DNA from: a virus
Virus record (IMG/VR): IMGVR_UViG_3300032265_001739
Span: 1-21,805 of that record
Length of the DNA stretch: 21,805 nucleotides
Strand: one strand, 5' to 3'
A program made the position numbers and the translations under genes. Under the pieces are notes generated by a model. That model was not told the DNA's origin, searched no databases, and was given only the letters and a program-made list of their open reading frames with translations. Shown piece after piece: positions 4,388 through 20,689 of the stretch (the first letter of the stretch is position 1; the number at the start of each line of letters is the position of its first letter).

Positions 4388-5086
4388 CTACTGCTGACTA
4401 ATACTTAGTTCGGTGTCATGTAGTCGATTGATTAACTTGACTATGCCCTTTATTGTACTATCATTTCTGAGACTTTTATAGACTAAATTTTCCACACTGA
4501 ACTCACCAGCGGGATTCTTGAGGCCCAGCTTGCGATATCTGCGTAGCAGACTCAGGCTGGCTCTACAGGCAGTTAAATTACCAGTTTTCATGGCCTGCTT
4601 GATGAGATTTCTCCAGGACTGGGCTAGTTCTTCAACTTGACCCATATCATGAGGAGGTATGTCTTTTACCGGCTCCCTGATCCAATGATCTGTCAGTAGG
4701 CTGTAGCTGGCCGAGACAGCAGGGTGCCGTTGATCTTCTACATAGAGCTCCACGGGTATGCCGCGGATCTTTAGGCTGTATTCTTCCTTGTAGAGCAGAC
4801 GCTTGGTGTCAAACAGTTCTGCGGCTTCGCGATCACAGCTGACTGTGTCAAAGTCCGCTATGAGATGTAGATCCAAATCCGAATGTTCAGTATAGGTATA
4901 GGCCGCATTGCTGCCGGCTACCACTAGATCCTTAACAGTAAATTCTATACCAATATAACGGTAAAAATCCTGGGCAATTTTGATCAGGCTTCTTTTGACT
5001 TCGGGGCGCAGTTTGCCCTCATGCCAAAGGCGTGGGTTCAGTTCCGAATGTAATTCAATTGGGGCGGCAAACTCGTTTAGGCTCAT
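4388..5086 (-). CDS. Nucleotidyltransferase-fold protein (DNA polymerase beta superfamily)
   Basis: 232 aa. The nucleotidyltransferase signature is VVAGSNAAYTYTEHSDLDLHL at about 55-75: GS at 58-59 with the metal-binding pair D70 and D72. A third acidic residue is E113 in the strand PVELYVED. This is the minimal catalytic core of the polymerase-beta-type nucleotidyltransferases. The C-terminal half (from about 145) is helical, as in many such enzymes where it binds the acceptor. The substrate is unknown; candidates include RNA ends, tRNA, a protein or a small molecule. The start has no Shine-Dalgarno sequence, and AATAAATA ends seven bases before it. The nucleotidase gene follows on the same strand. 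Confidence 0.75.
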   Translation of the reverse strand: MSLNEFAAPIELHSELNPRLWHEGKLRPEVKRSLIKIAQDFYRYIGIEFTVKDLVVAGSNAAYTYTEHSDLDLHLIADFDTVSCDREAAELFDTKRLLYKEEYSLKIRGIPVELYVEDQRHPAVSASYSLLTDHWIREPVKDIPPHDMGQVEELAQSWRNLIKQAMKTGNLTACRASLSLLRRYRKLGLKNPAGEFSVENLVYKSLRNDSTIKGIVKLINRLHDTELSISQQ

Positions 5087-5115: not shown

Positions 5116-5685
5116 ATGAGCATGAGTTGGAACAATTATCAAGGTCACCTAATAGCAAGTCATCCTTGCAATCCTCAGGATGAGCATCATCATTCAGTCA
5201 TTCTAATGGTGAACCATACACCCGATACCGCAGTGGGGCTACGAATCAATCAGTTGGTTAATATCCCTGTACTTAAGAACATAGTCAACGAAAATCTAGG
5301 CATTGACTATCACAGAGACGACCCTTTGTACAGCGGAGGGTCTTCCAGCGCCAATAAGATACATGTGATACACAGCATGGATTGGTCGGGTCTGAGCACG
5401 GTGCAGATCACTGATGATATTGGCATTACCAATGATATCAGTGTGTTTGCCGCCCTAAGCAGAGACGAAGGACCCGAACATTTCAAAGCCTGCATGGGCT
5501 TTTGGTTTTGGGCCAACGGACACTTTGATCTACAGATGAATCACAAGATACGCCCGCAGGAGTCCAGACATCGCTGGGAACCTGTAGAAGCCACTATTGA
5601 AAACACTTTCCAAACTCCCGAAGTACTGATGTGGGATCGGGTCATAGAAGAAAGTGCCAAGATGCAGATCAACAGTTGGTTTTAA
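5116..5685 (+). CDS. YqgE/AlgH family protein
   Basis: 189 aa. The N terminus has GHLIASHP at 10-17 followed by SVILMVNHTPDTAVGLRINQ at 27-46, which corresponds to the conserved start of the YqgE/AlgH (UPF0301, DUF179) family: a secured strand, SVI.. and G.x.N. DPLYSGGSSS at 69-78 corresponds to the family's P.Y.GGPV, KIHVIHS to its F.LH strand, and FKACMGFWFWANGHFDLQMN at 123-142 to the Gly/Trp-rich LGYxGWxxGQLE region. The family has no settled biochemical function; AlgH was linked to alginate regulation in Pseudomonas. In a phage the job is unknown. There is no Shine-Dalgarno sequence. The stop overlaps the convergent helicase stop by four bases (TTAA). Confidence 0.75.
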   Translation: MSMSWNNYQGHLIASHPCNPQDEHHHSVILMVNHTPDTAVGLRINQLVNIPVLKNIVNENLGIDYHRDDPLYSGGSSSANKIHVIHSMDWSGLSTVQITDDIGITNDISVFAALSRDEGPEHFKACMGFWFWANGHFDLQMNHKIRPQESRHRWEPVEATIENTFQTPEVLMWDRVIEESAKMQINSWF

Positions 5686-7133
5686 TCCTTTTCGGGATTG
5701 ATATTCTGTAGCATCTTACGCATCAAGGGTGCTTCTGATTTAGGTTTGGCTGCGGCAATCTTGCCAACACTGATACCCTGTGTGGGATCAATTTCTCCTG
5801 TTTCTGGATCCACTGTGCCTGTACTGACCACACTGGTTCTCTTGAATCCCGAGTATAAGTTATTGGACTGTGTTTTTTGTTGACTGAAAGATGACTCTTG
5901 TTCTTCTTCGCCTAGATCAGTGATACGCAGAGTATCCAAGTTAAACTCTAGTTCGACCTTTTGACCTACACCGCTGGAACTACGAGTTTTCATAAACTGT
6001 ATCTGATAGCGTCCGCGTTCTTTCATAGCCCTACTGGTAAAGATACCAATCACATTATCCGCTGTCATGATCTTTGACAAACCGCCCGAAATATGACTGT
6101 GATCAAACTCAATTTCCTCAACAGCACTACGATTTAACTGACTCGCTGTAACCGTGATACATTGTGTTTCCATTGCTAGATTTCGAATCTCTTCTGATAC
6201 ATATTTGTCTTTTACAAACAGATCGCTGGGCGATACCTTCACTGATAAAGGCATCATCAAATCGAGGTAATCTATTAATAAAACATCGGGTTTCACGCCT
6301 TTTTTGACCTGATATTCTTTCAAATAGGCTCGAATATCGTTACAATTTTTCCCCGAAGGCATATACTTAACTTGCAGGTTTCCTGCCTTTTTACCCAGCA
6401 TTTTAACCTTGAGTTCAACATCATCGATGCTCTTGAAAATCTCTCGGGTACCAATACCTGTGGTCATACTATCCAATCGCATGGCCACTAGTCCTTCGCT
6501 CAACTCAAATGTTAGGTATAGGACATTTAGTCCCTGTAGGGCCCAGTTAACGCCGAGATTAGCCAGGAACAAACTCTTACCACCGCCCGATCCTGCACAG
6601 AAAATATTCAACTCGCCACGATTAAATCCACCGTACAGCTTTTTATCAATGCTGGGCCATCCTGTTGAAATTTGTCCATTACCATCTTTCAATTTGGTCA
6701 AACGACTTTTGGGATCTTCAAAGTAATCTGTGCCCATGTCCTTATTCAAACTAATCTGGATAGCATCCTTAATCAGCTTTTCTACAGGGCCATAGTCACC
6801 CGCATCCAATAGGTCACTGCTTTTGATGATCGCTCGTTCTAGCCCCTTGTGTCGACTAAAAGTCTCAAACTCATCCATCAGCCAATCATAATTTTCCTTG
6901 GGCAGAGCAACAGGATTAAAGTCACTGTTAGTTGACACATTGACAATATTAGCCTCGGGCATGACCTTGTATTCATCAACATATTTGTTGATAAATTCTG
7001 CGGCGTCTCTTAGCTTTTGATCAAAGTTTTCAGGATCAAAAATGTTCTGTACTCGGATAAAAGTTTCCGCATCACTGAGAAACATTTCCAAATACAATTT
7101 CTGCATTTTATAGTCGTAGTTTGTTTTAGTCAT
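5682..7133 (-). CDS. 41: Replicative DNA helicase, T4 gp41/DnaB type
   Basis: 483 aa. The N-terminal 140 residues are helical, as in DnaB-type helicases. The RecA-like core starts at TGWPSIDKKLYGGF, with Walker A AGSGGGKS at 180-187 and Walker B DVLLIDYLDL at 283-292. The motif TASQLNR is at 329-335, and FMKTRSSSGVG at about 380-390 holds a candidate arginine finger, R384. This is a ring-shaped 5'-3' helicase that unwinds the fork and partners with the gp61 primase, whose gene lies directly upstream with an 8-base overlap. The C-terminal 70 residues are low in structure (Gln, Ser, Lys and Pro-rich), a probable flexible tail for partner binding. The ATG start is set by the primase overlap. Confidence 0.95.
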   Translation of the reverse strand: MTKTNYDYKMQKLYLEMFLSDAETFIRVQNIFDPENFDQKLRDAAEFINKYVDEYKVMPEANIVNVSTNSDFNPVALPKENYDWLMDEFETFSRHKGLERAIIKSSDLLDAGDYGPVEKLIKDAIQISLNKDMGTDYFEDPKSRLTKLKDGNGQISTGWPSIDKKLYGGFNRGELNIFCAGSGGGKSLFLANLGVNWALQGLNVLYLTFELSEGLVAMRLDSMTTGIGTREIFKSIDDVELKVKMLGKKAGNLQVKYMPSGKNCNDIRAYLKEYQVKKGVKPDVLLIDYLDLMMPLSVKVSPSDLFVKDKYVSEEIRNLAMETQCITVTASQLNRSAVEEIEFDHSHISGGLSKIMTADNVIGIFTSRAMKERGRYQIQFMKTRSSSGVGQKVELEFNLDTLRITDLGEEEQESSFSQQKTQSNNLYSGFKRTSVVSTGTVDPETGEIDPTQGISVGKIAAAKPKSEAPLMRKMLQNINPEKD

Positions 7134-8121
7134 CTATACCTTCAAGTTTTTTCTTAATTAGATTTATTTTTATCTCTCCCGAGACTCTATAGTGCAAGAT
7201 CGTGGCTAGCGCATAGAGCCTTCCATATCGTTTAACTGCATCGGCAACATCCTTGATATCATCACCCCAAGGAGGCAAACTGGCTGACCAATTATTCTTT
7301 ATCGCATACTTCAACAGTTGGGCACCGGGCTTGTCTCGATCAGGTACAATGATTACCTCTCGATTCAATGCGTTCAATCTCATGACCTGTACATCGCTGA
7401 TCTCATTATGCATCACAGCACAGCTATCAACTGCGACAGCATCAAACTGTCCTTCTACCACTATGACAAATTTTCTTTGATAATCTTGATGATCAATATT
7501 GAATACACACCCAGGTTGGCTATGTGTTAGATACTTTGGTTTGCCATCTTTGATCTTACGACCTGTGTAGCCTACTATTTTACCTTCGTGATAGAATGGT
7601 AGTATCACACGATCTCGATAACCTGGCTCCGGACTCCAAAACCAAGGATACCAATCTATGCTCATACCTCTACTGTCAATGTAGTCAATCACTGATAAGA
7701 AATCTGGTTCTACACAGCCTGTCATGGCCCATTCTTTGATACTCTTGGCACCTTCGGGCAAAGGCCTTTCTTCCAGATCAAATTTTAATTCTTTAACAAC
7801 CGGTGCCTGCTCATCCCTCAATCTAAGAGCAACTAGACCCAGTCTTCCAATTTCTAACTCTGTCATACCTAGCCAGCTGAACATCTGCTTGGTATTGTTG
7901 CTGAGTAAATTGCCCGGAGTCCATCCTGCCTTGAAGTTGCAGTTGAAACAGTTATATTGAAATCCGCCCTTTTGATTGGGCAGTATGCCACCACGCATGC
8001 GAGTATCTTGGCTGTTACCTCTATGATGACAGCAGACAGCATTGAACGAAATCCAGCCGCTGAGCGTAGACTTTCGTTTAGGTGGCAAGAGAGCCATCAC
8101 TGTTGCATAGATTTCATCCAT
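7126..8121 (-). CDS. 61: DNA primase, T4 gp61 type
   Basis: 331 aa. The N-terminal zinc-binding region has CCHH at 30-33 and CFNC at 58-61, matching the Cys-rich template-reading domain of DnaG/gp61 primases. The catalytic TOPRIM domain has FVIVVEGQFDAV at 218-229 with E223, and IIVPDRDKPG at 257-266 with D261 and D263, which bind metal. It makes RNA primers for lagging-strand synthesis and works with the gp41 helicase encoded just downstream. The length is close to the T4 protein (about 340 aa). A second ATG four bases into the sequence is out of frame. The stop overlaps the helicase ATG region by eight bases, indicating coupled translation. Confidence 0.93.
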   Translation of the reverse strand: MDEIYATVMALLPPKRKSTLSGWISFNAVCCHHRGNSQDTRMRGGILPNQKGGFQYNCFNCNFKAGWTPGNLLSNNTKQMFSWLGMTELEIGRLGLVALRLRDEQAPVVKELKFDLEERPLPEGAKSIKEWAMTGCVEPDFLSVIDYIDSRGMSIDWYPWFWSPEPGYRDRVILPFYHEGKIVGYTGRKIKDGKPKYLTHSQPGCVFNIDHQDYQRKFVIVVEGQFDAVAVDSCAVMHNEISDVQVMRLNALNREVIIVPDRDKPGAQLLKYAIKNNWSASLPPWGDDIKDVADAVKRYGRLYALATILHYRVSGEIKINLIKKKLEGIDD

Positions 8122-8130
8122 GCTACTAGT

Positions 8131-8970
8131 TTAACTTCTGTAAAGGACTTTGTCAAGCGACCCGTAGTATGCAGGGTTGTTATTGGTAGAATCAGTTGGG
8201 CCTTTGGCCGGAACAAACTTGAATCGCACATATGAATATATACCATTCCAATTTAAATAATCGACTCCTTTGAAGCCATTGTAGTTTAAAGTGGCAATGG
8301 TATAATAATTGTGCATATTGGTACTGTTGTCTAGTGTACCTTGTACATAGACTGTACCTTTGAAATTGGTCATGTAGATAGCCGCAGTATGCAGAGCTGT
8401 ATTAGCCTTAAACTCTGGATATGCATAGACGTCGCCGCTGGTAAATTCGTAGACCATACTGCCTTGGTTATACGAATGTTGAAAGCTGACTACTTCTTGA
8501 CTGGGCTTTAATACAGGATTGATATCTTCTAATAGTTGAAGTGTTCCTGCTATATTATAGTAGGTATTTGAGTATGCAGGCAAGTAAGTTCCGTCAGCGG
8601 GATCCTGATATTTGATACTGTACTGATAACTAGACTTTGGTAAATCTAATGTATCGCTTTCTGTTAGGATCAGTTCAGCTAGTCCCCGTAACCCTAGTGT
8701 TGATCCGTCATCAATTACTACCAGTTGTTTTTCCAACATCAACATTTGGTTGCTAGCATCAAACATACTGAACACAAATGTCTGTGTATTCGAAATAGGG
8801 ATACGCTTTTGATCGCTGTTTTTAAACTGCACACGGATCTTGTTTTTGATTCCTTTTTGTACTTTTAAATCGTTCTGATACATGACCCTATTGGCTCCCC
8901 TGGTGGTAAAATCCAAATCTAATATTACGTCGAGTTTATTAGAGTATAAATAGATTGGTAAAGTTTGCAT
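8131..8970 (-). CDS. Beta-rich protein, possible virion or baseplate component
   Basis: 279 aa. Nearly all of it is predicted beta strand, with many Tyr, Asn, Thr and Ser and few long helices. Residues 1-150 look like one sandwich domain: KLDVILDLDF, IRVQFKN, TFVFSMFDA, QLVVIDDG, SYQYSIKYQDPADGTY. This pattern recalls the N-terminal domain of phage baseplate upper proteins (BppU type). Residues from about 160 form a second sandwich (AAIYMTNFKGTVYVQGTLDN, then YSYVRFKFVPA), like a carbohydrate-binding or fibre domain. The assignment is structural inference only. No Shine-Dalgarno sequence is present, and AATAAATA lies five bases before the ATG, which fits late expression of a structural gene. 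The primase gene starts nine bases downstream. Confidence 0.5.
   Translation of the reverse strand: MQTLPIYLYSNKLDVILDLDFTTRGANRVMYQNDLKVQKGIKNKIRVQFKNSDQKRIPISNTQTFVFSMFDASNQMLMLEKQLVVIDDGSTLGLRGLAELILTESDTLDLPKSSYQYSIKYQDPADGTYLPAYSNTYYNIAGTLQLLEDINPVLKPSQEVVSFQHSYNQGSMVYEFTSGDVYAYPEFKANTALHTAAIYMTNFKGTVYVQGTLDNSTNMHNYYTIATLNYNGFKGVDYLNWNGIYSYVRFKFVPAKGPTDSTNNNPAYYGSLDKVLYRS
8945..8952 (+). promoter_or_regulatory. Perfect T4 late promoter octamer TATAAATA
   Basis: TATAAATA on the plus strand is identical to the T4 late (gp55-dependent) -10 element. It is 39 bases upstream of ATG 8992 and points towards it, lying inside the first codons of the divergent beta-rich gene. Confidence 0.6.
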
Positions 8971-8991: not shown

Positions 8992-9366
8992 ATGTCATCA
9001 TCGAGTAGCTTCCAACAAAATCATCCATTCATCGCCTGCATTAAGTCTAACGACATAGAATATGTGGGCATCGTTGTCAACTTCGATGATTATGTGGTCA
9101 GCATGTATGATATCAGTATGATAAAAACAGATGTTGAAAAATCTAGATTTCTTGAGCTAGGTGAAGTTTGGTGGTGGGAAAGCAATCGTCGAATCCCTAT
9201 TAATATTTTTTTAAAACAGGACATGAGTCCGTTTAGATATACCATTAAGACATTTAACAGCAAGGATGTAGAGGTGGTGTTCGGACCTACAGTAAACCTC
9301 AGCGATATCGCAGAAAAGCGAATCAAACGCAAATCAATACAGTTAGTTAGAGCTGTTCGACGCTGA
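8992..9366 (+). CDS. Conserved-looking small protein of unknown function
   Basis: 124 aa. It opens with a Ser-rich stretch (SSSSS), then a beta-rich core: PFIACIKSNDIEYVGIVV, YVVSMYDISMI, an aromatic LGEVWWWESN at about 56-65, IPINIFLKQ, and a strand EVVFGPTVNL. The basic C-terminal helix is KRIKRKS...RAVRR. The core could be a small barrel, but I do not recognise a family. It is the only plus-strand gene between the primase region and the right edge, and has its own perfect TATAAATA octamer upstream. Its last 24 bases overlap the 3' end of the convergent DnaE-like gene. No strong Shine-Dalgarno sequence is visible. Confidence 0.6.
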   Translation: MSSSSSFQQNHPFIACIKSNDIEYVGIVVNFDDYVVSMYDISMIKTDVEKSRFLELGEVWWWESNRRIPINIFLKQDMSPFRYTIKTFNSKDVEVVFGPTVNLSDIAEKRIKRKSIQLVRAVRR

Positions 9367-9996
9367 CATCTTTTCGCAGATTAAATTCATCTGCACTACA
9401 ATCACATGCGCATAGGCAATGGCATGCGCTTTCTTAAAGTAGTACTCGTCATTCTCCGGCTTCGTCCATATCTCTGTCATCACCGAGTGCCAATCTTTCC
9501 CAATCAGATAGCGTTTGGCAGGGCGTATCATAGCCAAAACTGCCGCTAGTTGGGATATCGTTGTCGGTTTCATCTGACGTAATATAGCGCCATGTCCGTT
9601 GAGGTGAAATAGTAAATTGCTGAAATCGTCCTGCTCTAAAAGGTCCCATAGAGGTTCGGTCTCCATTAATTGTCTTAGATGTGTTTCATCTCGAACATCA
9701 TTGTACACACTGACATTCAAGAAATCTATTTTAAAATAGCCACGATCTTCTGCTTCCTTATAATCTAGGCTAGCAGTATTAGTTAATGGATTAACTGGGA
9801 TAGCAGTACAATATACGCCTGAATTGTGCTTTTTAAAAATGCCATCTTGATCGATCATGGCCGCAGGAGTATGCTCGATAATATCGAGTATTTTTGTCCT
9901 ATCGGCAAAGTCTATATCAATATCCGGCAATTCTAATCTCGTCGTATGATGGTGCGTAGTTACCCAAATGTTGCACAGTGATACCTGCGGCAACAT
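9343..9996 (-). CDS. Miniature DNA polymerase III alpha (DnaE)-like protein
   Basis: About 195-217 aa depending on the start. Motifs are collinear with the catalytic core of bacterial DnaE: LPDIDIDF (two metal-binding Asp), HNSGVYC, GYFKIDFLNV (third Asp), then LLFHLNGHGAI..MKPTTISQLAAVLAMIRP, which parallels the GVFQ..G.R..L..LKP..feDliA..ALyRPGP element. Last comes KKAHAIAYAHV, parallel to the FNKSHAxAYA element. DnaE is usually over 1,000 aa with PHP, fingers and OB domains; here only fragments of palm and fingers remain and the distances are shortened. Polymerase activity is doubtful; a regulatory or vestigial role is possible. The start is uncertain: ATG 9996 overlaps the kinase gene by 80 bases, while TTG 9930, just before LPDIDIDF with GAG upstream, overlaps by only 14. 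Confidence 0.7.
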   Translation of the reverse strand: MLPQVSLCNIWVTTHHHTTRLELPDIDIDFADRTKILDIIEHTPAAMIDQDGIFKKHNSGVYCTAIPVNPLTNTASLDYKEAEDRGYFKIDFLNVSVYNDVRDETHLRQLMETEPLWDLLEQDDFSNLLFHLNGHGAILRQMKPTTISQLAAVLAMIRPAKRYLIGKDWHSVMTEIWTKPENDEYYFKKAHAIAYAHVIVVQMNLICEKMSASNSSN

Positions 9997-10687
9997 TAGC
10001 AAATATTATAGCTTTTTTTATGTCATTTGTATATAGGTATTGGACAGTTAATGCGGATAGGAATGTATCACCTGCTCCACAGACATCTGTAACTTCTACC
10101 TTTTTGGTAGGATAAATCTCATCCCATAATCTAGCACCTTGACTGCCCAATGTGGTAATCACTCCGGAACACTCACTTGTGAGTTTACTATATTCTAATT
10201 CATTGATCTTGACCCAAGCGCCTTGGAATCGAGACAAGTCAGTTTTCTTTGTATCAATAAACACAGGACAGCTAACCCCGGCAATCACTTCTTCAATTAG
10301 CTCGTAGCTGACTGTACCTTTATTATAATCACTGATAACCACAGCATCATACATGTTAGGTATAGCTGTATCAAATTGGATAGGATCAGATTGCATGTCG
10401 TTATCAATTCTTACAATCTGTTGTTTGCTACGGCTATCAATCAATCTAGTTTTGACAGAAGTATCTCCAAACAGATAACTCACTTCACAGCCCAGTGCTT
10501 CTAGATTATCGAAAACATTACCGGCCATTCCACGACGTTCTTCCTTGTATCTAGGAACAAACACAGGAATAGGTGCTTCGGGGCTGATACGATCTACAGT
10601 ACCAAACTGATATACATCGGTACAGTTATCCCCGATTAATAATATCTTGAATGGTGTTTGTGGTTGAGTATTGTTCAATTCTGTCAT
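9917..10687 (-). CDS. PfkB-family sugar kinase, heptose-7-phosphate kinase (HldA/HldE N-domain) type
   Basis: 256 aa, shorter than the about 318-aa kinase domain of HldE. Family landmarks are ILLIGDNCTDVYQFG at about 15-29, RISPEAPIPVF at 33-43 (as in HldE, where this follows the DRxxxG strand), GMAGNVFDNLEALG at 53-66, a strand AVVISDYNKG at about 115-124, and the PfkB signature DVCGAGDTF at 201-209 with catalytic D207. It would phosphorylate D-glycero-D-manno-heptose 7-phosphate at C1. The gene overlaps the upstream adenylyltransferase by 62 bases: its N terminus and the conserved STTNTI end of that enzyme are read from the same DNA. The missing 60 residues are mostly from the middle. Another sugar substrate cannot be excluded. 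Confidence 0.8.
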   Translation of the reverse strand: MTELNNTQPQTPFKILLIGDNCTDVYQFGTVDRISPEAPIPVFVPRYKEERRGMAGNVFDNLEALGCEVSYLFGDTSVKTRLIDSRSKQQIVRIDNDMQSDPIQFDTAIPNMYDAVVISDYNKGTVSYELIEEVIAGVSCPVFIDTKKTDLSRFQGAWVKINELEYSKLTSECSGVITTLGSQGARLWDEIYPTKKVEVTDVCGAGDTFLSALTVQYLYTNDIKKAIIFANVAAGITVQHLGNYAPSYDEIRIAGY

Positions 10688-11027
10688 AGTAAATTACTTT
10701 ATCGCAATATTGATGTGCTGTTGATTTACGATCTTTTTTCCAATCGCTGCCTTTTACATAGATGTCGGGCTGATATTTTTTCATCAGTTCGATCAGTTCT
10801 TCTGTGCTGTCAAAGAAATAAACTGTATCTACACAGCGCAGACTTTCTAACATGAATCGTCTGTCGTTTTGATTATTGACGGGACGAGTAGGTCCTTTTA
10901 ATTCTGTTACACGGCGATCAGTATCTATTGCTACTAGCAGATGATGCCCGAGACTCTTGGCATACTGTAACATCTGAAGATGTCCTCTATGCAAGATATC
11001 GAATGTTCCATTAACCATTACCTTCAT
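10626..11027 (-). CDS. hldC: Heptose-1-phosphate adenylyltransferase (HldC/HldE C-domain)
   Basis: 133 aa, the normal length of the RfaE2 domain. NGTFDILHRGHL at 6-17 is the nucleotidyltransferase motif with H13 and H16. KGPTRPVNNQNDRR at about 44-57, the DTVYFFD strand, the DIYVKGSDWK segment and the C-terminal STTNTI all match the HldE adenylyltransferase domain. It joins AMP from ATP to D-glycero-beta-D-manno-heptose 1-phosphate; a GTP-using HddC-type preference cannot be excluded. In many bacteria this domain is fused behind the kinase; here it is a separate gene placed in front of it. Its ATG overlaps the epimerase stop by four bases (ATGA), so the three genes are translationally linked. 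Confidence 0.9.
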   Translation of the reverse strand: MKVMVNGTFDILHRGHLQMLQYAKSLGHHLLVAIDTDRRVTELKGPTRPVNNQNDRRFMLESLRCVDTVYFFDSTEELIELMKKYQPDIYVKGSDWKKDRKSTAHQYCDKVIYYDRIEQYSTTNTIQDIINRG

Positions 11028-11791
11028 GGATAGTGCTTTCTTAATCGAGTCACATCTGCACAGGTGTAGGTTTGATATTGGTTTTTAACTGCATCGGGCA
11101 TGGGAATATATTCAATACGGGCATTATACATGGCCGCATACAAATCTGCAACTTCTTGGAAGCTCATAGTTTCACCAGTTCCGACATTCCATAATCCGCT
11201 TTCGTATACATCAAAAAACTTTCTATGAACTTCGCATACAGTTTCTACAGGAACAAAATCTCTTAGATAATTTTCACTACCTTCAAATAGTTTAATTACT
11301 CTCGTTTCTTTTGCCTGACGTTCGAACTGTGTAAATGGACTTGCCTGATTACCCTTGTGTTCTTCGTGGGGACCATAGACATTGAAGTATCTGAACCCTT
11401 GTACAAATATGCCGGGCCAGTTACCTTCAGCGACATATTTGTCAAAGAGATATTTGGTCCACGCATAGGGGCTTAGAGGATCTACGGGTGCAGTTTCTTT
11501 AAAATTTGTTTTTAAACCGTAGACACTGGCACTGCTGGCATATTGAAAGTTAACACCTTTTTCTCGGCATTGATGCAACAACCATACACTGAAATCATAA
11601 TTCTGTTCCATTATCTTTTCAATGTTGCGTTCTGTAGTAGAGCTAATAGCACCTAGATGTATGACCCAATCGAGGCCTGTGACATCAGGGTATGTTTCGC
11701 CCCATTCGAAAAATTTTAAATCATGGTCAGACAGATGCTGGATCATATTTTGACCTACGAAACCTCTATCTCCTGTGATTAAAATTCTCAT
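11024..11791 (-). CDS. hldD: ADP-L-glycero-D-manno-heptose-6-epimerase (HldD)
   Basis: 255 aa from ATG 11791, which overlaps the preceding stop as TGATG; a TTG just upstream is less likely. It is a short-chain dehydrogenase fold with the NAD(P)-binding ILITGDRGFVGQN at 3-15 and HLGAISSTTE at 45-54, the HldD-specific Ser/Thr-rich segment. The catalytic pair is Y109/K113 in YAWTK, with SSASVYG at 86-92. GFRYFNVYGPHEEHKGNQAS at 132-151 is also characteristic of HldD. It inverts C6 of ADP-heptose to give the form used in lipopolysaccharide core. It is about 55 residues shorter than the E. coli enzyme. It leads a tight hldD-hldC-kinase cluster. Confidence 0.9.
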   Translation of the reverse strand: MRILITGDRGFVGQNMIQHLSDHDLKFFEWGETYPDVTGLDWVIHLGAISSTTERNIEKIMEQNYDFSVWLLHQCREKGVNFQYASSASVYGLKTNFKETAPVDPLSPYAWTKYLFDKYVAEGNWPGIFVQGFRYFNVYGPHEEHKGNQASPFTQFERQAKETRVIKLFEGSENYLRDFVPVETVCEVHRKFFDVYESGLWNVGTGETMSFQEVADLYAAMYNARIEYIPMPDAVKNQYQTYTCADVTRLRKHYP

Positions 11792-12018
11792 CAAATAACT
11801 CTACCTAGGCCTAACCAAATTAATTTATCCAACTCGTCTTGATAATCATGATTACCTAGCCTGCGCTTGAGCCAGATTTTCTCAAGTAACTCTTTAGAGT
11901 CGTCTGAACCTTCTACTGGTAGTGAACTGCGACTTGCTAATTCGTCAAGTAGATCCTCAGTATCAAACTCACTTAGATCAACATCTACTTCTACTTCTGT
12001 GTAAATTGTTTTATACAT
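11791..12018 (-). CDS. Small acidic protein of unknown function
   Basis: 75 aa. An upstream start at 12090 would overlap the cupin gene by 71 bases and lacks support, while ATG 12018 has AAAGG at good spacing and starts two bases after the cupin stop. The protein begins MYKTIYTEVEVDVDLSEFDTEDLLDELASR, an alternating acidic strand and a helix, followed by a second helix near the C terminus (LLEKIWLKRR). Small phage proteins with a VDVDLSEFD-like start are common in my experience but have no known role. It lies between the cupin and the epimerase and is probably translated from the same mRNA. Confidence 0.6.
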   Translation of the reverse strand: MYKTIYTEVEVDVDLSEFDTEDLLDELASRSSLPVEGSDDSKELLEKIWLKRRLGNHDYQDELDKLIWLGLGRVI

Positions 12019-12019
12019 A

Positions 12020-12382
12020 TTAACCTTTCTGGCTGTCGCCTTTTGCCACACGATAGTTGTCTTCAACTGAATCGGGGGTGCTAACTTCAATTAGGGCACC
12101 TTCCTCGATGCAGATAACCTGATGAGGAAATAACGGAGGATTGTGCCATACATCGCCCTTTCTAATGAATTGACTGCCTTGACTAGCATCTTTGGTATTA
12201 ATAAATTTAACTTCAAACACCCCCTCTAGTACAAACCATGTCTCATCTTTTTCACTATGGAAGTGCATACTAAATTTTGCATCTTTATTGAACTTTAGTA
12301 TCTTACCACAGTACTTGTCATTAGAGGCAAAAATAAATTCATGCCCCCAACCTTTTTCTACGAACCCATTTAATCTTGTCAT
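12020..12382 (-). CDS. Cupin-fold protein, possible sugar isomerase or epimerase
   Basis: 120 aa, a single cupin barrel. The metal site is MHFHSEKDETWFVLEG at 39-54, with H40, H42 and E47, plus H87 in PLFPHQV. The N-terminal KGWGHEFIF and the GDVWHNPP turn resemble the C-terminal domain of type II mannose-6-phosphate isomerase/GDP-mannose pyrophosphorylase. Its position two genes upstream of hldD suggests a step in supplying or modifying the heptose or another sugar. No GmhA (sedoheptulose-7-phosphate isomerase) gene is visible, and whether this cupin could fill that gap is speculation. GGAG precedes the ATG. Confidence 0.75.
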   Translation of the reverse strand: MTRLNGFVEKGWGHEFIFASNDKYCGKILKFNKDAKFSMHFHSEKDETWFVLEGVFEVKFINTKDASQGSQFIRKGDVWHNPPLFPHQVICIEEGALIEVSTPDSVEDNYRVAKGDSQKG

Positions 12383-14723: not shown

Positions 14724-15227
14724 TTACCAACACTTAGTATAATCTACAATCTCACTTTGTCTAGAAACTTCTTTTACAAAGTATGCACAGCTTGGACCTT
14801 GTCCATCATGTAGTGGTGTGCATAATAATTGTCCAGGACGCATCTTGGGAAAATACCATTTTACATCTTGATAGACATCGATGATATCAATTTCAAAAAA
14901 TTCCGGCCTAAATCCGCTTAGGGGATTAAAACAAAATGTCTTAAATCCTCGATCATTCAAACTGGTTAGGGGCAAGACTTCCATTTCAGGCCCTTCGGGA
15001 TCCCCTACAATAGTACACCAATCTAATGGCATAGTCAGTTCGTGTGGACCAATTCTCAATACCGTCGCCGGGCCAGTAAAACTCTCCAAGAAAATTAATG
15101 GTATGAAAAAGTAATCGGGATTAGCATTGTCACTGTTATCTAGTACTGAGAATCTCAAGTCCTCGTCTATCTCGTCTGGTAAATCGTTGAGATGAAAAAT
15201 TTTATTATCTAATGTTAGAATCTGCAT
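14724..15227 (-). CDS. Conserved hypothetical phage protein
   Basis: 167 aa from ATG 15227, which shares one base with the uvsW stop (TAATG); a start at 15338 would lie inside uvsW and is rejected. It is beta-rich with an acidic beginning (NDLPDEIDEDLRFSV), then FFIPLIFLESFTGPATVLRIGPHELTMPLDWCTIVGD, VLPLTSLNDRGFKTFCFNPLSGFRPEF and DVYQDVKWYFPKMRPGQLL, ending VKEVSRQSEIVDYTKCW. Many Pro, Gly and aromatic residues point to a compact globular domain. I believe proteins like it occur beside uvsW in marine T4-like phages, but I know no function and see no catalytic motif. Confidence 0.65.
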   Translation of the reverse strand: MQILTLDNKIFHLNDLPDEIDEDLRFSVLDNSDNANPDYFFIPLIFLESFTGPATVLRIGPHELTMPLDWCTIVGDPEGPEMEVLPLTSLNDRGFKTFCFNPLSGFRPEFFEIDIIDVYQDVKWYFPKMRPGQLLCTPLHDGQGPSCAYFVKEVSRQSEIVDYTKCW

Positions 15228-16693
15228 TATTGGTATTTGACCTTTTGAATTGTAAAGGGATATTTCGCATCCTTGTAAAACTTTTTGCGTTCTGTAAGGT
15301 GACGTTTGGCATATTTTGTTGATGCTGTGACATCCCAAATTTGTACGAAGTCTTTATCGTCGGCTTTCCGAATACCGCGTCCAATTGATTGTATAACGCG
15401 GACAAAGCTCTTTCCGGGCTCAAGGAGAACCAGATGAAAAATCCGAGGAATATTAATACCCACAGCGGCCACACCATAAGTTGCCACAATAATCTTATTG
15501 TCAACTGTTTTAACTTCGTCATATTCTGCCTTGCGATCTTTTGTTTTTACTTCGCCTGAAATAAACACTGCATCTGGCAATGTTTCTACTAGATTTTTAC
15601 CCGAGTCAATACGATTAACAAGAACTAGCGTGTTTCCTGTTTCTGCAATGCCCTGTATTAGGTCACTAACATACTGCATCCTATCTTTGTCAGTGACTAA
15701 GAATTTCAATTCCTCTGCATAACTACCAAATTCCTTCCATTCGGCGGTCTGTACAATGTTAACATGACAATTACTCAGTACACCTTTTTCTTGTAATTCG
15801 TGTGCGCTGACTCTGTGAATAACTTCTCCTAGGCTAGCACGAATACTTTGAAATTCGTGGTCTGCTTTTGGTACTGTTCCTGTTAAGCCCCAGCGAATTG
15901 GTGTTTTTGCAAGGTTATGTGTCAGTAGAGTTTTCAGCACTTCTGCCTTGGCCATGTGAACTTCATCGACCATCACACATTGTACATTGTCCAACAACAT
16001 TTCAATTTTCGCACTGGCTGCTTCGTCCCAGTTTTTGCTATTTTTATCTAAAATATTCAAACTTTGCCAAGTGCAAATTGTATGCATCTTGTTTAGATCT
16101 TTTCTATCACCATAGTAAACACCTACGTCAAGACCGCAGTTGATAAAATCTTCTTCTGTTTGTTCAACTAGTGATTTATTAGGAACAATGGTTATTGTTC
16201 GACCGTATTTTTCACAGATTTTTGCCAGAGTTGCGGTGGTAATGGTCTTGCCAAAACCCGTAGCGATTTCTTGTATACATTGAGGATTGGCTAAAAATTT
16301 ATTGATCACCTCAGTCTGATCATCTCGCAATCTGATCTTTTCACCTGCAAAGCGATGACCTACTGGCCAGGTCTGATCACCCCAAAAATCTTCAAAAATT
16401 TCACTAAATTCTAGGGCACCTGCTTGACGCAGATCTTCTACTTCGATGTTAAAGTTTTTACTTTCTAAATATTCCAATACCTGTGGAAGCATGCTGAGGT
16501 AAGTTGTGCCCCCAAGACCAAAAAAGCTCACAGTACCATCCCATCGACCTAATTTATAGGCTGGACGGAACCGAGCAGTAGGGTCCTCATACTTGAACTT
16601 TTTAACCAAGGCCTTGCGAGTGTCAAGATCTAGATTTTCTATCTTGATGTTAACTTCATCCTTGATAACAATTTTACATGATGACAAAAGCAA
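15227..16693 (-). CDS. uvsW: UvsW-type DNA/RNA helicase (superfamily 2)
   Basis: 488 aa. The N-terminal domain (to about 115) resembles that of T4 UvsW, with FKYEDPTARFRPAYKLGRWDG. Helicase motifs follow in order: Walker A ATGFGKT at 144-150, DEVH box at 243-246, motif III TGT at 271-273, ATYGVAAVGI at about 404-413 and motif VI QSIGRGIRK at 435-443. UvsW unwinds branched DNA and R-loops, and in T4 it drives the switch from origin- to recombination-dependent replication. The start is TTG 16693 or TTG 16687; the former overlaps the upstream gene by 20 bases. The uvsX, UvsY-like and HARP-like genes lie upstream in the same block. Confidence 0.92.
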   Translation of the reverse strand: MLLSSCKIVIKDEVNIKIENLDLDTRKALVKKFKYEDPTARFRPAYKLGRWDGTVSFFGLGGTTYLSMLPQVLEYLESKNFNIEVEDLRQAGALEFSEIFEDFWGDQTWPVGHRFAGEKIRLRDDQTEVINKFLANPQCIQEIATGFGKTITTATLAKICEKYGRTITIVPNKSLVEQTEEDFINCGLDVGVYYGDRKDLNKMHTICTWQSLNILDKNSKNWDEAASAKIEMLLDNVQCVMVDEVHMAKAEVLKTLLTHNLAKTPIRWGLTGTVPKADHEFQSIRASLGEVIHRVSAHELQEKGVLSNCHVNIVQTAEWKEFGSYAEELKFLVTDKDRMQYVSDLIQGIAETGNTLVLVNRIDSGKNLVETLPDAVFISGEVKTKDRKAEYDEVKTVDNKIIVATYGVAAVGINIPRIFHLVLLEPGKSFVRVIQSIGRGIRKADDKDFVQIWDVTASTKYAKRHLTERKKFYKDAKYPFTIQKVKYQ

Positions 16694-17858
16694 ACTCCAT
16701 TTCTTTAGATTTTCCTGAAAAATTTATTAAATTATGGTGTCTTGACAGGTATTCTCTAATCGAATAATGCACACCGCCAATTCCTAGGTTTAAAATACAG
16801 TTAAATTTTATATTAGATTTTAACACAGGCTTGGGTAATTTACTACTGATAAAAACTACCTTCGTTTTGTCAGAAATTGGCGAATTTAAGGCCTGTTTTT
16901 TAACAAAATCGTTAAATTCTTTGCCAGTTTCGGTGGGTAAACGGAACATGACACTCATCTCACTATCATTGATACCCATTTGATGGAAAAGATCATAACT
17001 TTCTAGTAATGTGTTAAGCTCAGAGCCGCCGGGTATAACAACCATACAGGGCAACATATTTTTTACCAGCTCGGAAATGTCAGAAAACGGTATTTTTTCA
17101 GAATTTATGTTGAAGCCGGTATCGACACTAGATTTTAAAAATTCTATGACCAAGGGATCAGTGGTGTCTTGATTCAATACTGCATCAATCTCATCTGACC
17201 ATACCGTGATTCCATATTTTCTTGCCGCGAACAGTGATTCGATTATGTCCACACCTTGAAAATTAGGCAAATTTTTATGCACATTTTTAAATTTCGGAGT
17301 ATTATTTTCTAGCACTACCATAGGTACAAAATTTTCAACATCTTGCTGAATTTTAGCAATTTGATTTTGATAATTTAAAAATTCTTCGTCAATCGTCCAC
17401 TCATTTTTTAAACTAAGGTCAGAGACGAATTTAATATTGGCTTCACAAAGGGCAAATATCCAAGATTTTAGATCTTTGTTCCATACTGCCGGACCTAATT
17501 TGTTTTTAGTATTACGAATATCTGCTATAACAGATTCGTCATAGGGAAATTCTACCTTAATAATTTTTCCGTAGGTGTTATCTGGCAAAATACTTATTCT
17601 ACGAGAATTAGTAATTTTTCTAATGGCTAATTTGAACTTGGGGGTCTCTAAAAATCCACTAACATCAGAATTTAGGCGAGCTGATAATGTTGTAGAATAT
17701 CTTTTTAATATCTTGACTGCTAGGTCGGACTGTTTTTCTGTAAATGCCGATCCTCGACCTGTTTGATCACAAAAACTCAAGACTATATTATGGTCCCAGT
17801 TGTTAAGGGTACCAATTCTTAGTCTAGCAAGTTCAAAAATTAGGTCTTCAATGTACAT
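16674..17858 (-). CDS. HARP-domain-like protein of unknown function
   Basis: 394 aa. Residues about 96-150 (KIIKVEFPYDESVIADIR...VWNKDLKSWIFAL) resemble the HARP domain, which precedes the helicase in annealing helicases such as SMARCAL1: a strand with FPY, a helix, then W/yd...K.W.F. Before this there is an FTEKQSDLAVKIL segment. The C-terminal 200 residues alternate strands and helices (CMVVIPGGSEL, KVVFISSK, FNCILNLGIG) like a nucleotide-binding or helicase-type core, but no Walker motifs are present. The gene is AT-rich, has its own extended -10 sigma70 promoter behind a terminator, and overlaps uvsW by 20 bases, so the two are probably translated together and may cooperate on branched DNA. 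Confidence 0.55.
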   Translation of the reverse strand: MYIEDLIFELARLRIGTLNNWDHNIVLSFCDQTGRGSAFTEKQSDLAVKILKRYSTTLSARLNSDVSGFLETPKFKLAIRKITNSRRISILPDNTYGKIIKVEFPYDESVIADIRNTKNKLGPAVWNKDLKSWIFALCEANIKFVSDLSLKNEWTIDEEFLNYQNQIAKIQQDVENFVPMVVLENNTPKFKNVHKNLPNFQGVDIIESLFAARKYGITVWSDEIDAVLNQDTTDPLVIEFLKSSVDTGFNINSEKIPFSDISELVKNMLPCMVVIPGGSELNTLLESYDLFHQMGINDSEMSVMFRLPTETGKEFNDFVKKQALNSPISDKTKVVFISSKLPKPVLKSNIKFNCILNLGIGGVHYSIREYLSRHHNLINFSGKSKEMEFAFVIM

Positions 17859-17906: not shown

Positions 17907-18362
17907 TTATAAACTGATATCTTCCAAACCTGCGGCTCGAAGTTTGATGATATTACTTAACTGCCACTGCTTGATGTCAAGACCTTTGATAATTCCCAGC
18001 CATTGATTTCGTAGCATGGCAAATTCATTGATAATTTTCTCCATATCAATGACATCGGGCTCACCTTCCACATATTTTTCACAATCTCGACTACTCAATG
18101 CCCGTTGGTAAGTTTCCAAGTATTTTCTAAATGCTTTAGACCTAATACGGCGTAGCTCAATGTTTAAATATTCTAAGATTGCTTCAACTTCTTGCAGTTG
18201 ATTGAATCGTTGCTCAACAATACCGGGAAGTTGAGCAGAAGCCTTTTCTACATTTCCGTGTACTTTGACTTCTGCTCTAGCCTGGTCTAGTTCATTGTAA
18301 AAATGATCTAAACAGTTCGGAAGGTGCGCTATGTCTTTGCTAACTTTAGCGTACCAAGACAC
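17907..18362 (-). CDS. Probable UvsY-like recombination mediator
   Basis: 151 aa from GTG 18360-18362, with GAGGA upstream. It is all helical and charged, with a central long helix RFNQLQEVEAILEYLNIELRRIRSKAF and a C-terminal MLRNQWLGIIKGLDIKQWQLSNIIKLRAAG at about 117-147. T4 UvsY (137 aa) also consists of helices with a C-terminal segment ending IKHIQDMRAF that helps it oligomerise and load UvsX onto gp32-covered DNA. The similarity is in length, helix pattern and C terminus. Synteny supports it: uvsX is two genes upstream and uvsW two genes downstream. A terminator directly follows the stop. Confidence 0.5.
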   Translation of the reverse strand: MSWYAKVSKDIAHLPNCLDHFYNELDQARAEVKVHGNVEKASAQLPGIVEQRFNQLQEVEAILEYLNIELRRIRSKAFRKYLETYQRALSSRDCEKYVEGEPDVIDMEKIINEFAMLRNQWLGIIKGLDIKQWQLSNIIKLRAAGLEDISL

Positions 18363-18364
18363 AA

Positions 18365-18610
18365 TTAATCCTCGCCTTCGTAATAATCTACATCGTCATC
18401 TAATTCATCGTCTTGTTGCTCTTCTTCAACAACAGTTTCGATGGCTAGATCCAAATGTGGATCATATCCCATCAGTCCTTCAAGGATCGAAATTTCGACA
18501 TCTTTGCCTAGTAAGAAGTCTACATAGTGTGCCGCAACCGCTTCGCGATTTTTTTCTGGAACATATTCTCTGAATACATCCCATAGTTCAACAATCAAAC
18601 TTTCTTCCAT
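18365..18610 (-). CDS. Small acidic protein of unknown function
   Basis: 81 aa. Its ATG shares one base with the uvsX stop (TAATG). Residues 1-55 are helical (SLIVELWDVFREYVPEKNREAVAAHYVDFLLG), followed by a strongly acidic tail (EEEQQDDELDDDVDYYEGED). Such tails often bind a basic protein or imitate DNA. Position between uvsX and a UvsY-like gene suggests an accessory role in recombination or late transcription, but I recognise no family. Confidence 0.65.
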   Translation of the reverse strand: MEESLIVELWDVFREYVPEKNREAVAAHYVDFLLGKDVEISILEGLMGYDPHLDLAIETVVEEEQQDDELDDDVDYYEGED

Positions 18611-19668
18611 TATACTTCATCCTCTGTTTCTTCAATAGTTACTGTGGGTCTTACTGTTGATTCATCCCATTCTTCCATAATCAAACGAAGTTTATCTTCC
18701 GTCCAATTTTTACGGAATTCTGCAAGGATTTCTCCAGTGGCCTTACTGGTATATGCCAGTTTATTTCCCACTTTAGATAATACACCCATCTTTTCAAACA
18801 TGTCAACCAGACCAGAGGTTGGCGCCATACCTGTTGAATAAGGAATCTTAACTTGTACGGTTTCAAAAGGTTTTGCGTAGCGTGTCTTCATGATCTTACA
18901 AGCTGAACGAATACCTAATACATCACTGACTTTGTTGCCGTCTTCGTCTTCCTTTAACTTCAACTTCTTCATGGCAACCACAATAGAAGATGCGTAAACA
19001 AAACCCTGTCCACCTGATATTTTGTCGTCTGGATCAAACATATCTTGACTTGCGTATGTGTGATTTGTACAAACCATACCTACATTGTAGCTGCCAAACA
19101 TGTTTACACAGTTACGAACAAGACTTGTAAGTGCTTTGGGTTTACGACCCATGTCGCCCTTCATCTCACCTGCTTCAAACTGATTGACATCTGTGGGAGT
19201 CAATAACATACCCAATGAATCAATTACAAACAACACCTTGGGACGATCAGCGTCCGGCATGACTTTGTACTCTTTCATGAATTCACTAATAGTCTTAGCT
19301 ACATCATCAATCATGGCCATGTTAAGTTTTAACAGCTTATCATCGCTAGTATCCACACCCAAGTCTAGCAACCACTTTTCATCAAGAGCATTTTCACTGT
19401 CAACAAGGATGACATAAATGCCTTGTTCTTGAGCCGCCTTAATAATATTGCCTGAGCAGATATATGATTTACCCGCACCAGACTCTCCAGCAAATACCGT
19501 CACCTTACCTAAAGGGACTCCCTTAAAGAAGTCCCCCGAGATAAGATAGTTTAGGGCATAGTTGCCAGTTGAGATCCAATCTGTTGGATCGTTGAAACCA
19601 ATTCCTAAGCCATCAATACTTTTAGTGATAGACTTACGGAACTTCGATAAATCGAAGGCCTTTACCAT
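18610..19668 (-). CDS. uvsX: UvsX, RecA-like strand-exchange recombinase
   Basis: 352 aa, close to T4 UvsX (about 390). Walker A is GESGAGKS at 61-68, the catalytic Glu region is DSENALD with E92, Walker B is VLFVIDSLGML at 145-155, and the motif CTNHTYASQDMF is near 199-210. DKISGGQGFVYASS follows, as in UvsX/RecA. The C terminus is acidic (EETEDEV). It coats single-stranded DNA, displaces gp32 with UvsY's help and catalyses strand invasion for repair and recombination-dependent replication. AAAAGGAG lies before the ATG, a strong ribosome-binding site, 13 bases after the gp32 stop. Confidence 0.95.
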   Translation of the reverse strand: MVKAFDLSKFRKSITKSIDGLGIGFNDPTDWISTGNYALNYLISGDFFKGVPLGKVTVFAGESGAGKSYICSGNIIKAAQEQGIYVILVDSENALDEKWLLDLGVDTSDDKLLKLNMAMIDDVAKTISEFMKEYKVMPDADRPKVLFVIDSLGMLLTPTDVNQFEAGEMKGDMGRKPKALTSLVRNCVNMFGSYNVGMVCTNHTYASQDMFDPDDKISGGQGFVYASSIVVAMKKLKLKEDEDGNKVSDVLGIRSACKIMKTRYAKPFETVQVKIPYSTGMAPTSGLVDMFEKMGVLSKVGNKLAYTSKATGEILAEFRKNWTEDKLRLIMEEWDESTVRPTVTIEETEDEV

Positions 19669-19681
19669 AGTCTATCTCCTT

Positions 19682-20689
19682 TTAGTTTTGTTGACGCTTA
19701 CGGATCATCGCAATGATGTCTGCGGCACGGCTTGAAGCATCACCACCCGAGGCTGGTGTATCTTCTTTAACTGCTGTTTTTGCTACTGGTGCTGGATCAG
19801 CATCAAACGGAGCATCATCTTCATCTTCTGCTACTGGAGCAGGTGCTGGACGAGCTACCGCAGGACGAGCTGCCGGAGCTGGTGCATTACCATTACCACT
19901 GCCGCCTCTCATGCCGTCTGGTTTAAAGTATTGTCCCCAACGGTCCATATCAAATGCTTCGCCATCGACAGATGCTTCAAACATTTCTTTCATAACCTTC
20001 AGTTCAACATCACCTGGTTTCTTAGGCAGGAAGTCACTCAAATTAAACAAACCATATTGTTCAATTGCGGCTTTTTCTGCTTCGTTCAAGGCACGCTCAC
20101 GACGTCCCCAAGTACTAGTAGAATAGTCAGCATAACCGCCTTTAGATGTTTTTGCAATCTTGAAGTCCAAGCCACGGACATAGTCTGTTGGCAATTCTTC
20201 AATTTCACTATCCATCAATGCGTTTTTAACAATGTTAAAAATTTGACTACCAATGATGAATCGACGAATTGGATTCTCTGGAGTCTTGTCTTCTTGGAAT
20301 TTTGAATCAACAACAAAACCTTGGAACAGATAAGACTTTTTCTTCCAGTACTTACGACCCATGTCTTCCAAAGACTTATCTTTGAACCATGGACGAACTT
20401 CTGTAAGAATTGGGCATGTCTCACCCCACATTTCCATGCAAGGAACTTTTACAGTTACTGGACGGGAATTAGTATCACCTTTCACACCTGCAAAAGGCAA
20501 GTTAATGATCGAGCGTTCGATCCAGAAAAAAGTGTTGTTTGGGTCTGCATCGGGTAAGAAACGGACAGTTGCCGTTGCACCTTCTGCTATGTTCCAGTGG
20601 GGATAAATTGCGTTATCACCAGCGGTGTAGTTTTGAGTTGCTTGTGCGCTTGATTGAAGTTTAGCGCGAATTTCTGCTAGAGTTGCCAT
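19682..20689 (-). CDS. 32: gp32, single-stranded DNA-binding protein
   Basis: 335 aa. Core features match T4-type gp32: FLPDADPNNTFFWIERSIINLPF, WGETCPILTEVRPWF, then MGRKYWKKKSYLFQGFVV at about 109-127 and RFIIGSQIF. The T4 zinc site (H-C-C-C) is not complete: only C84 and C92 are seen, so it is probably zinc-free. After residue about 268 there is a long Ala/Pro linker (APAPAARPAVARPAPAP), an acidic stretch (EDEDDAPFDAD) and a terminal helix SSRAADIIAMIRKRQQN. It protects single-stranded DNA and organises replication and recombination partners. AAGGA precedes the ATG. The AU-rich leader fits the known self-repression of T4 gp32 translation, though no clear pseudoknot is seen. Confidence 0.93.
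   Translation of the reverse strand: MATLAEIRAKLQSSAQATQNYTAGDNAIYPHWNIAEGATATVRFLPDADPNNTFFWIERSIINLPFAGVKGDTNSRPVTVKVPCMEMWGETCPILTEVRPWFKDKSLEDMGRKYWKKKSYLFQGFVVDSKFQEDKTPENPIRRFIIGSQIFNIVKNALMDSEIEELPTDYVRGLDFKIAKTSKGGYADYSTSTWGRRERALNEAEKAAIEQYGLFNLSDFLPKKPGDVELKVMKEMFEASVDGEAFDMDRWGQYFKPDGMRGGSGNGNAPAPAARPAVARPAPAPVAEDEDDAPFDADPAPVAKTAVKEDTPASGGDASSRAADIIAMIRKRQQN

Follow-up and report, generated by a model that had tools for sequence, protein, structure and literature searches.

A candidate catalytic half of a trans-split, minimal DnaE-type DNA polymerase in an uncultivated virus

In 2021, Iyer et al. predicted that group 2.2 jumbo phages encode a split, minimal DNA polymerase III alpha subunit (Pol III alpha), and suggested that this minimal form could be ancestral to bacterial Pol III (PMC7824862); earlier genome papers had noted one of the two pieces as a truncated Pol III alpha (PMC5259590, PMC6102473). 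We found no laboratory follow-up of this prediction in the literature, within the open-licence text searched. The gene described here, mini-DnaE, lies in a 21,805-nucleotide (21.8-kb) fragment from an uncultivated virus with ∼54% identity to the nearest isolate, Sinorhizobium phage Phosso; we refer to this whole stretch as the window. Mini-DnaE belongs to the family of the C-terminal half, or C-half, of the jumbo-phage system (phrog_11778), the family of the N-terminal half, or N-half, being phrog_11127; it has the Asp triad but none of the remaining Pol III domains. In its large relatives the two proteins are distantly encoded and, wherever this was searched, accompanied by a family B polymerase. 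The split arrangement is thus already predicted in print, and the window adds a member to it.

Bacterial DnaE1 and DnaE3 and the full-length phage DnaE (phrog_405) have palm motifs in common with the phage pair and in the same order (PDxDxDF with Asp405, HxxGV, KxDFL, RP and FxKxH...Y), but the pair lacks the PHP, thumb, full fingers, HhH, clamp motif and OB parts and carries its GS motif on another polypeptide. Cyanobacterial DnaE is likewise encoded by two genes, the halves of which are spliced into one full-length chain by a split intein; its break lies far downstream, whereas the phage break falls inside the palm, and the phage chains have clean ends that leave no room for an intein. The palm logic of a GS helix combined with an Asp triad is also common to the DNA polymerase beta superfamily nucleotidyltransferases, while the sequence likeness of mini-DnaE is specifically to DnaE.

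Mini-DnaE, which we interpret as the catalytic (C-terminal) half of a split minimal Pol III alpha, is a 195-aa ORF on the minus strand (9343..9930 including the stop codon) that starts with the TTG at 9930. The initial annotation had worked with a longer ORF beginning at a TTG at 10002, which we regard as a mis-start because the start codon of 71 environmental relatives is almost always at position –2 from DIDIDF, and at –1 in a few. From the TTG at 9930 the protein opens M-P-D-I-D-I-D-F, i.e. in effect with the catalytic β-strand. At its 5′ end the gene shares 14 bases with the upstream heptose-kinase-like ORF (9917-10687), and at its 3′ end it shares 24 bases with the 3′ end of the convergent gene at 8992-9366.

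All the motifs quoted in the initial annotation lie in a single open frame of the minus strand and follow the DnaE order. With a profile of E. coli and phage DnaE, mini-DnaE is the sole match in the six-frame translation of the window (E = 3e-10). The DnaE relationship that the annotation proposed to check by profile was borne out by the PHROG search (phrog_11778, 5e-69) and by hhalign of 46 relatives against a DnaE alignment (P = 9e-7), but the Pfam matches stayed sub-threshold (14.1 bits for PF07733 and 12.9 bits for PF17657). Of the 3,218 ORFs ≥120 aa in the sequences collected, 111 have the five motifs in order, with at most one such ORF per record, none of the 111 longer than 300 residues and all of them coming from records fetched as members of this family. 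Judged by these sequence comparisons, mini-DnaE is homologous to DnaE, and the likeness of its motifs exceeds chance.

The DnaE motifs are distributed along the chain as follows, all on the minus strand. PDIDIDF (9907..9927) holds the first two catalytic Asp (E. coli D401 and D403) together with D405, and the corresponding D3, D5 and D7 are invariant in 72 sequences. HNSGV (9814..9828) is the counterpart of DnaE HAGGV (H511, G514), with H35 present in 72/72, and KIDFL (9718..9732) is that of KFDFL, comprising K553 and the third catalytic Asp D555 (K67 and D69, 72/72). The stretch GHGAI...KP...LA...AMIRP (9520..9597) aligns to the 614-640 region of DnaE, which ends in RPGP (R639), and FKKAHAIAY (9412..9438) to FNKSHSAAY of the O-helix, with the steric-gate His (E. 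coli H760) and Y764 (H169 and Y173, 72/72). In E. coli numbering, the equivalents of D401, D403, D405, H511, K553, D555, R639, H760 and Y764 are all invariant among the 72 sequences, in agreement with the earlier claim that all three catalytic Asp (D401, D403 and D555) are kept. Asp at residue 405 marks DnaE, its place being taken by Asn in PolC (PMC3919608), and E. coli H760 is a putative steric gate against ribonucleotides (PMC8485763). Mini-DnaE accordingly has the features of family C, namely Asp at 401, 403 and 555, the DnaE-type Asp405 and the steric-gate His, each in 72/72. The suggestion that the gene evolves under purifying selection also held, as pairwise Nei-Gojobori estimates, a simple method, gave a median dN/dS of 0.127 (range 0.05-0.25, 126 pairs).

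Large parts of DnaE are missing from the chain. The distance from PDxDxDF to HxxGV is 25 residues as compared with 104 in E. coli, i.e. the thumb is lost, and that from RPGP to FNKSH is 25 residues as compared with 113, i.e. a fingers segment is lost. On alignment to mini-DnaE no clear counterpart was seen of the fingers residues Q687/E688 (YQEQ) and R709 (LRRAMGKK), nor of R390/R396, which adjoin the split point, and for this reason the canonical DnaE mechanism should not be assumed. The chain is too short to hold the PHP, HhH, clamp-binding and OB regions; PHP and (HhH)2 domains, nearly universal in C-family DNA polymerases (PMC3919608), gave no match in either the 195-aa or the ∼175-aa chain. 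Also missing is the GS triphosphate-binding motif, which precedes PDxDxDF in every DnaE aligned. In Pol-beta-fold enzymes this motif holds the incoming triphosphate. The initial description of a shrunken palm/fingers core hence stands insofar as the protein is a reduced relative of the DnaE palm and fingers, but the palm is not complete, the GS helix being encoded in the relatives by a second, unlinked phage gene.

This second gene emerged from a PF07733 search of nine phage genomes that carry mini-DnaE, each of which holds a second small ORF covering profile positions of about 16-98, the stretch just ahead of the catalytic strand. These ORFs are the N-half (phrog_11127, ∼175 aa). The N-half carries an invariant GxGRGSS, and its chain ends about 33 residues later at ...EFLK/R. 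By HMM alignment this end falls in the helix at E. coli DnaE residue 392 and the C-half starts at residue 400, so that the two chains follow each other along the DnaE palm, only ∼7 residues apart. The break lies at the same point in every lineage, and no fused form was seen among 84 N-half and 71 C-half loci. Profile search of the window gave no N-half on this 21.8-kb fragment. The model of the N-half is confident (pLDDT 91.5), and Pol III alpha accounts for each of the 15 best PDB matches (with 5lew, probability 1.0 and 3.5 Å over 97 columns); the N-terminal ∼95 residues of the N-half have no Pfam match. Modeled as a single chain with AlphaFold2, the C-half reached a pLDDT of 75 overall, with values <50 at residues 1-8, the catalytic strand, and 64-68, the stretch just ahead of the third Asp. 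A Foldseek search of the PDB with this model returned no significant match, DnaE chains recurring among the weak hits. The low pLDDT of the catalytic strand in the isolated C-half model would fit, rather than prove, a need for the partner.

The two halves travel together. Both are present in 23/23 records of ≥200 kb examined, which comprise nine isolates, three IMG/VR contigs, eight contigs found via the N-half, KP13-7, RAS14 and the MAG G022, the last being 2.4 Mb over several contigs; a 181-kb contig with both halves is not counted in the 23. Taken by route of discovery, both halves occur in 4/4 IMG/VR contigs of ≥180 kb found via the C-half and in 8/8 contigs of ≥200 kb found via the N-half, while shorter contigs frequently hold one half only, as expected of fragments. 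The 141-kb phage Slickus01 has both halves about 11 kb apart with a clamp-loader gene between them, so the split system is not confined to phages >200 kb. Among 50,697 phage records the counts of the two halves by host genus are 34/34 for Escherichia, 11/11 for Pseudomonas, 8/8 for Erwinia, 8/8 for Salmonella, 3/3 for Xanthomonas and 11/10 for Klebsiella. Part of this co-occurrence reflects common descent. In IMG/VR the C-half has at least 584 confirmed matches, and its identity across phages of very different hosts is ∼40-77%. Cellular homologues of the C-half amount to 12 loci only, all in MAG records, and these are probably misbinned phage contigs, as indicated by the record titles and by one MAG in which a single other contig carries both an N-half and a family B polymerase. 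Four PHROGs of phage DNA polymerases, phrog_13169, phrog_11165, phrog_12219 and phrog_21652 (463, 782, 823 and 476 positions, respectively), are of partial DnaE length, which may point to additional forms of DnaE that are split or reduced.

The initial annotation had expected a T4-like phage to have a family B polymerase, and one was indeed found in all large relatives searched: 9/9 isolates, 4/4 large IMG/VR contigs and 5/5 further records, which are the records that this search covered. No family B polymerase was seen among the genes of the 21.8-kb window fragment.

The surroundings of mini-DnaE in the window are those of a T4-like replication cluster on the minus strand, with genes for a gp41-like DnaB replicative helicase (5682..7133, phrog_19), a gp61-like DNA primase (7126..8121, phrog_47), a syntenic putative virion structural protein (8131..8970, phrog_14467), a UvsW-like helicase (15227..16693, phrog_16), a UvsY-like recombination mediator (17907..18362, phrog_231), a UvsX-like recombinase (18610..19668, phrog_97) and a gp32-like single-strand binding protein (19682..20689, phrog_1192). 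In the window and in nearly all isolates read, the C-half is followed in order by the convergent gene, a structural or hypothetical gene, the primase gp61 and the helicase gp41, and the N-half precedes a gp44-like clamp loader or AAA-ATPase in 5/5 isolates read, so that each half has a replication cluster of its own. Between the N-half and the gp44 clamp loader, most isolates have a gene annotated as GroES-like or head morphogenesis, a possible chaperone link. The convergent antisense neighbor (8992..9366, plus strand) matches phrog_11637 and is found at the 3′ end of mini-DnaE in nearly all relatives examined, overlapping it in most; this conserved antisense overlap is worth explaining.

Several further features of the window deserve mention. 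Directly upstream of mini-DnaE lies an ADP-heptose cassette (9917-12382, minus strand) made up of a heptose-7-P kinase-like gene shorter than HldE domain I (9917-10687), a separate heptose-1-P adenylyltransferase (10626-11027), an HldD-like epimerase (11024-11794) and a cupin (12020-12382), all on the minus strand; no such cassette is annotated at the corresponding place in the isolates read. Just upstream of UvsW, a 394-aa protein (16674-17858, minus strand) has no Pfam or PHROG match, part of it resembling by eye a HARP-like or inactive helicase segment, and at this site 121Q and RaK2 have a DnaQ-like exonuclease. Finally, the gene at 4388-5086 (minus strand, phrog_36119) gives a weak match to NTP_transf_2, a Pol-beta-like nucleotidyltransferase family.

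On the strength of these comparisons we take the gene to encode the catalytic half of a minimal DnaE-type (family C) polymerase that is split in trans into two chains; these would associate and act as an accessory polymerase, and we assign this reading a probability of roughly 0.78. In the proposed mechanism the two chains would come together and complete a Pol-beta-like palm, in which the GS helix of the N-half would hold the triphosphate, the Asp triad of the C-half would bind the metals, and the O-helix with its steric-gate His would select dNTPs. The paired chains may then add dNTPs to DNA as a low-processivity accessory of the T4-like family B replisome, serving in short gap filling, repair or the synthesis of one strand. 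We favor an accessory over a main replicase because the thumb, the clamp-binding and PHP regions and most fingers elements are absent. A bolder version, which we put forward tentatively and at somewhat below even odds, is that a heterodimer of the two chains (about 175 and 195 aa) is an active DNA polymerase and one of the smallest in family C. It would dispense with the thumb and the canonical dNTP-side fingers segment, would serve as a dedicated second polymerase in the T4-like family B replisome, and might be a survivor of the minimal form from which bacterial Pol III arose.

The same losses, which affect the thumb, the YQEQ/R709 elements of the fingers and the clamp-binding motif, would, along with a family B polymerase that is always there where searched, also suit a model in which the halves assemble but are a catalytically weak or a non-polymerase nucleotidyltransferase, or a replisome regulator, retained because they bind DNA, dNTP or the family B polymerase. 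We consider this model unlikely, since no sequence in the close alignments has lost any of the metal-binding Asp, the GS motif or the steric gate, and a ribose-selecting steric gate would be needless in a regulator. The initial annotation had offered two other explanations. If the C-half acted alone as a decoy or partner of the host DnaE, its resemblance to segments of that protein would make sense, as separate pieces of DnaE might, in theory, compete for binding partners, yet the N-half accompanies it in 23/23 large records, it lacks the DnaE segments for clamp, tau and epsilon binding, and its ∼40-77% identity is kept across phages of very different hosts, which leaves this idea highly improbable. 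That mini-DnaE is a degraded relic of a full-length phage DnaE would account for its shortness and its large deletions relative to DnaE, but is scarcely credible in view of the low dN/dS, the invariant catalytic residues in 72 sequences, the identical split point in every lineage and the hundreds of intact copies in viral contigs. Both explanations are thus disfavored by the co-occurring N-half, the replication-gene neighborhood and the invariance of the catalytic and steric-gate residues.

To the published prediction of a split polymerase, our analysis adds the exact and invariant split point, the retention of the steric gate and of the DnaE-type Asp405, the loss of thumb and fingers segments, the abundance in IMG/VR, a non-jumbo phage with both halves, the conserved location of each half and the restriction of cellular loci to MAGs. 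The split point, the steric gate and the thumb and fingers losses translate into concrete, testable predictions. An active pair would amount to a very small family C polymerase whose active site is divided between two proteins. One could then ask which parts of Pol III catalysis really needs, and whether a core of this kind gave rise to bacterial Pol III. Such activity would also mean that these phages have a replisome that mixes a family B replicase with a bacterial-type polymerase.
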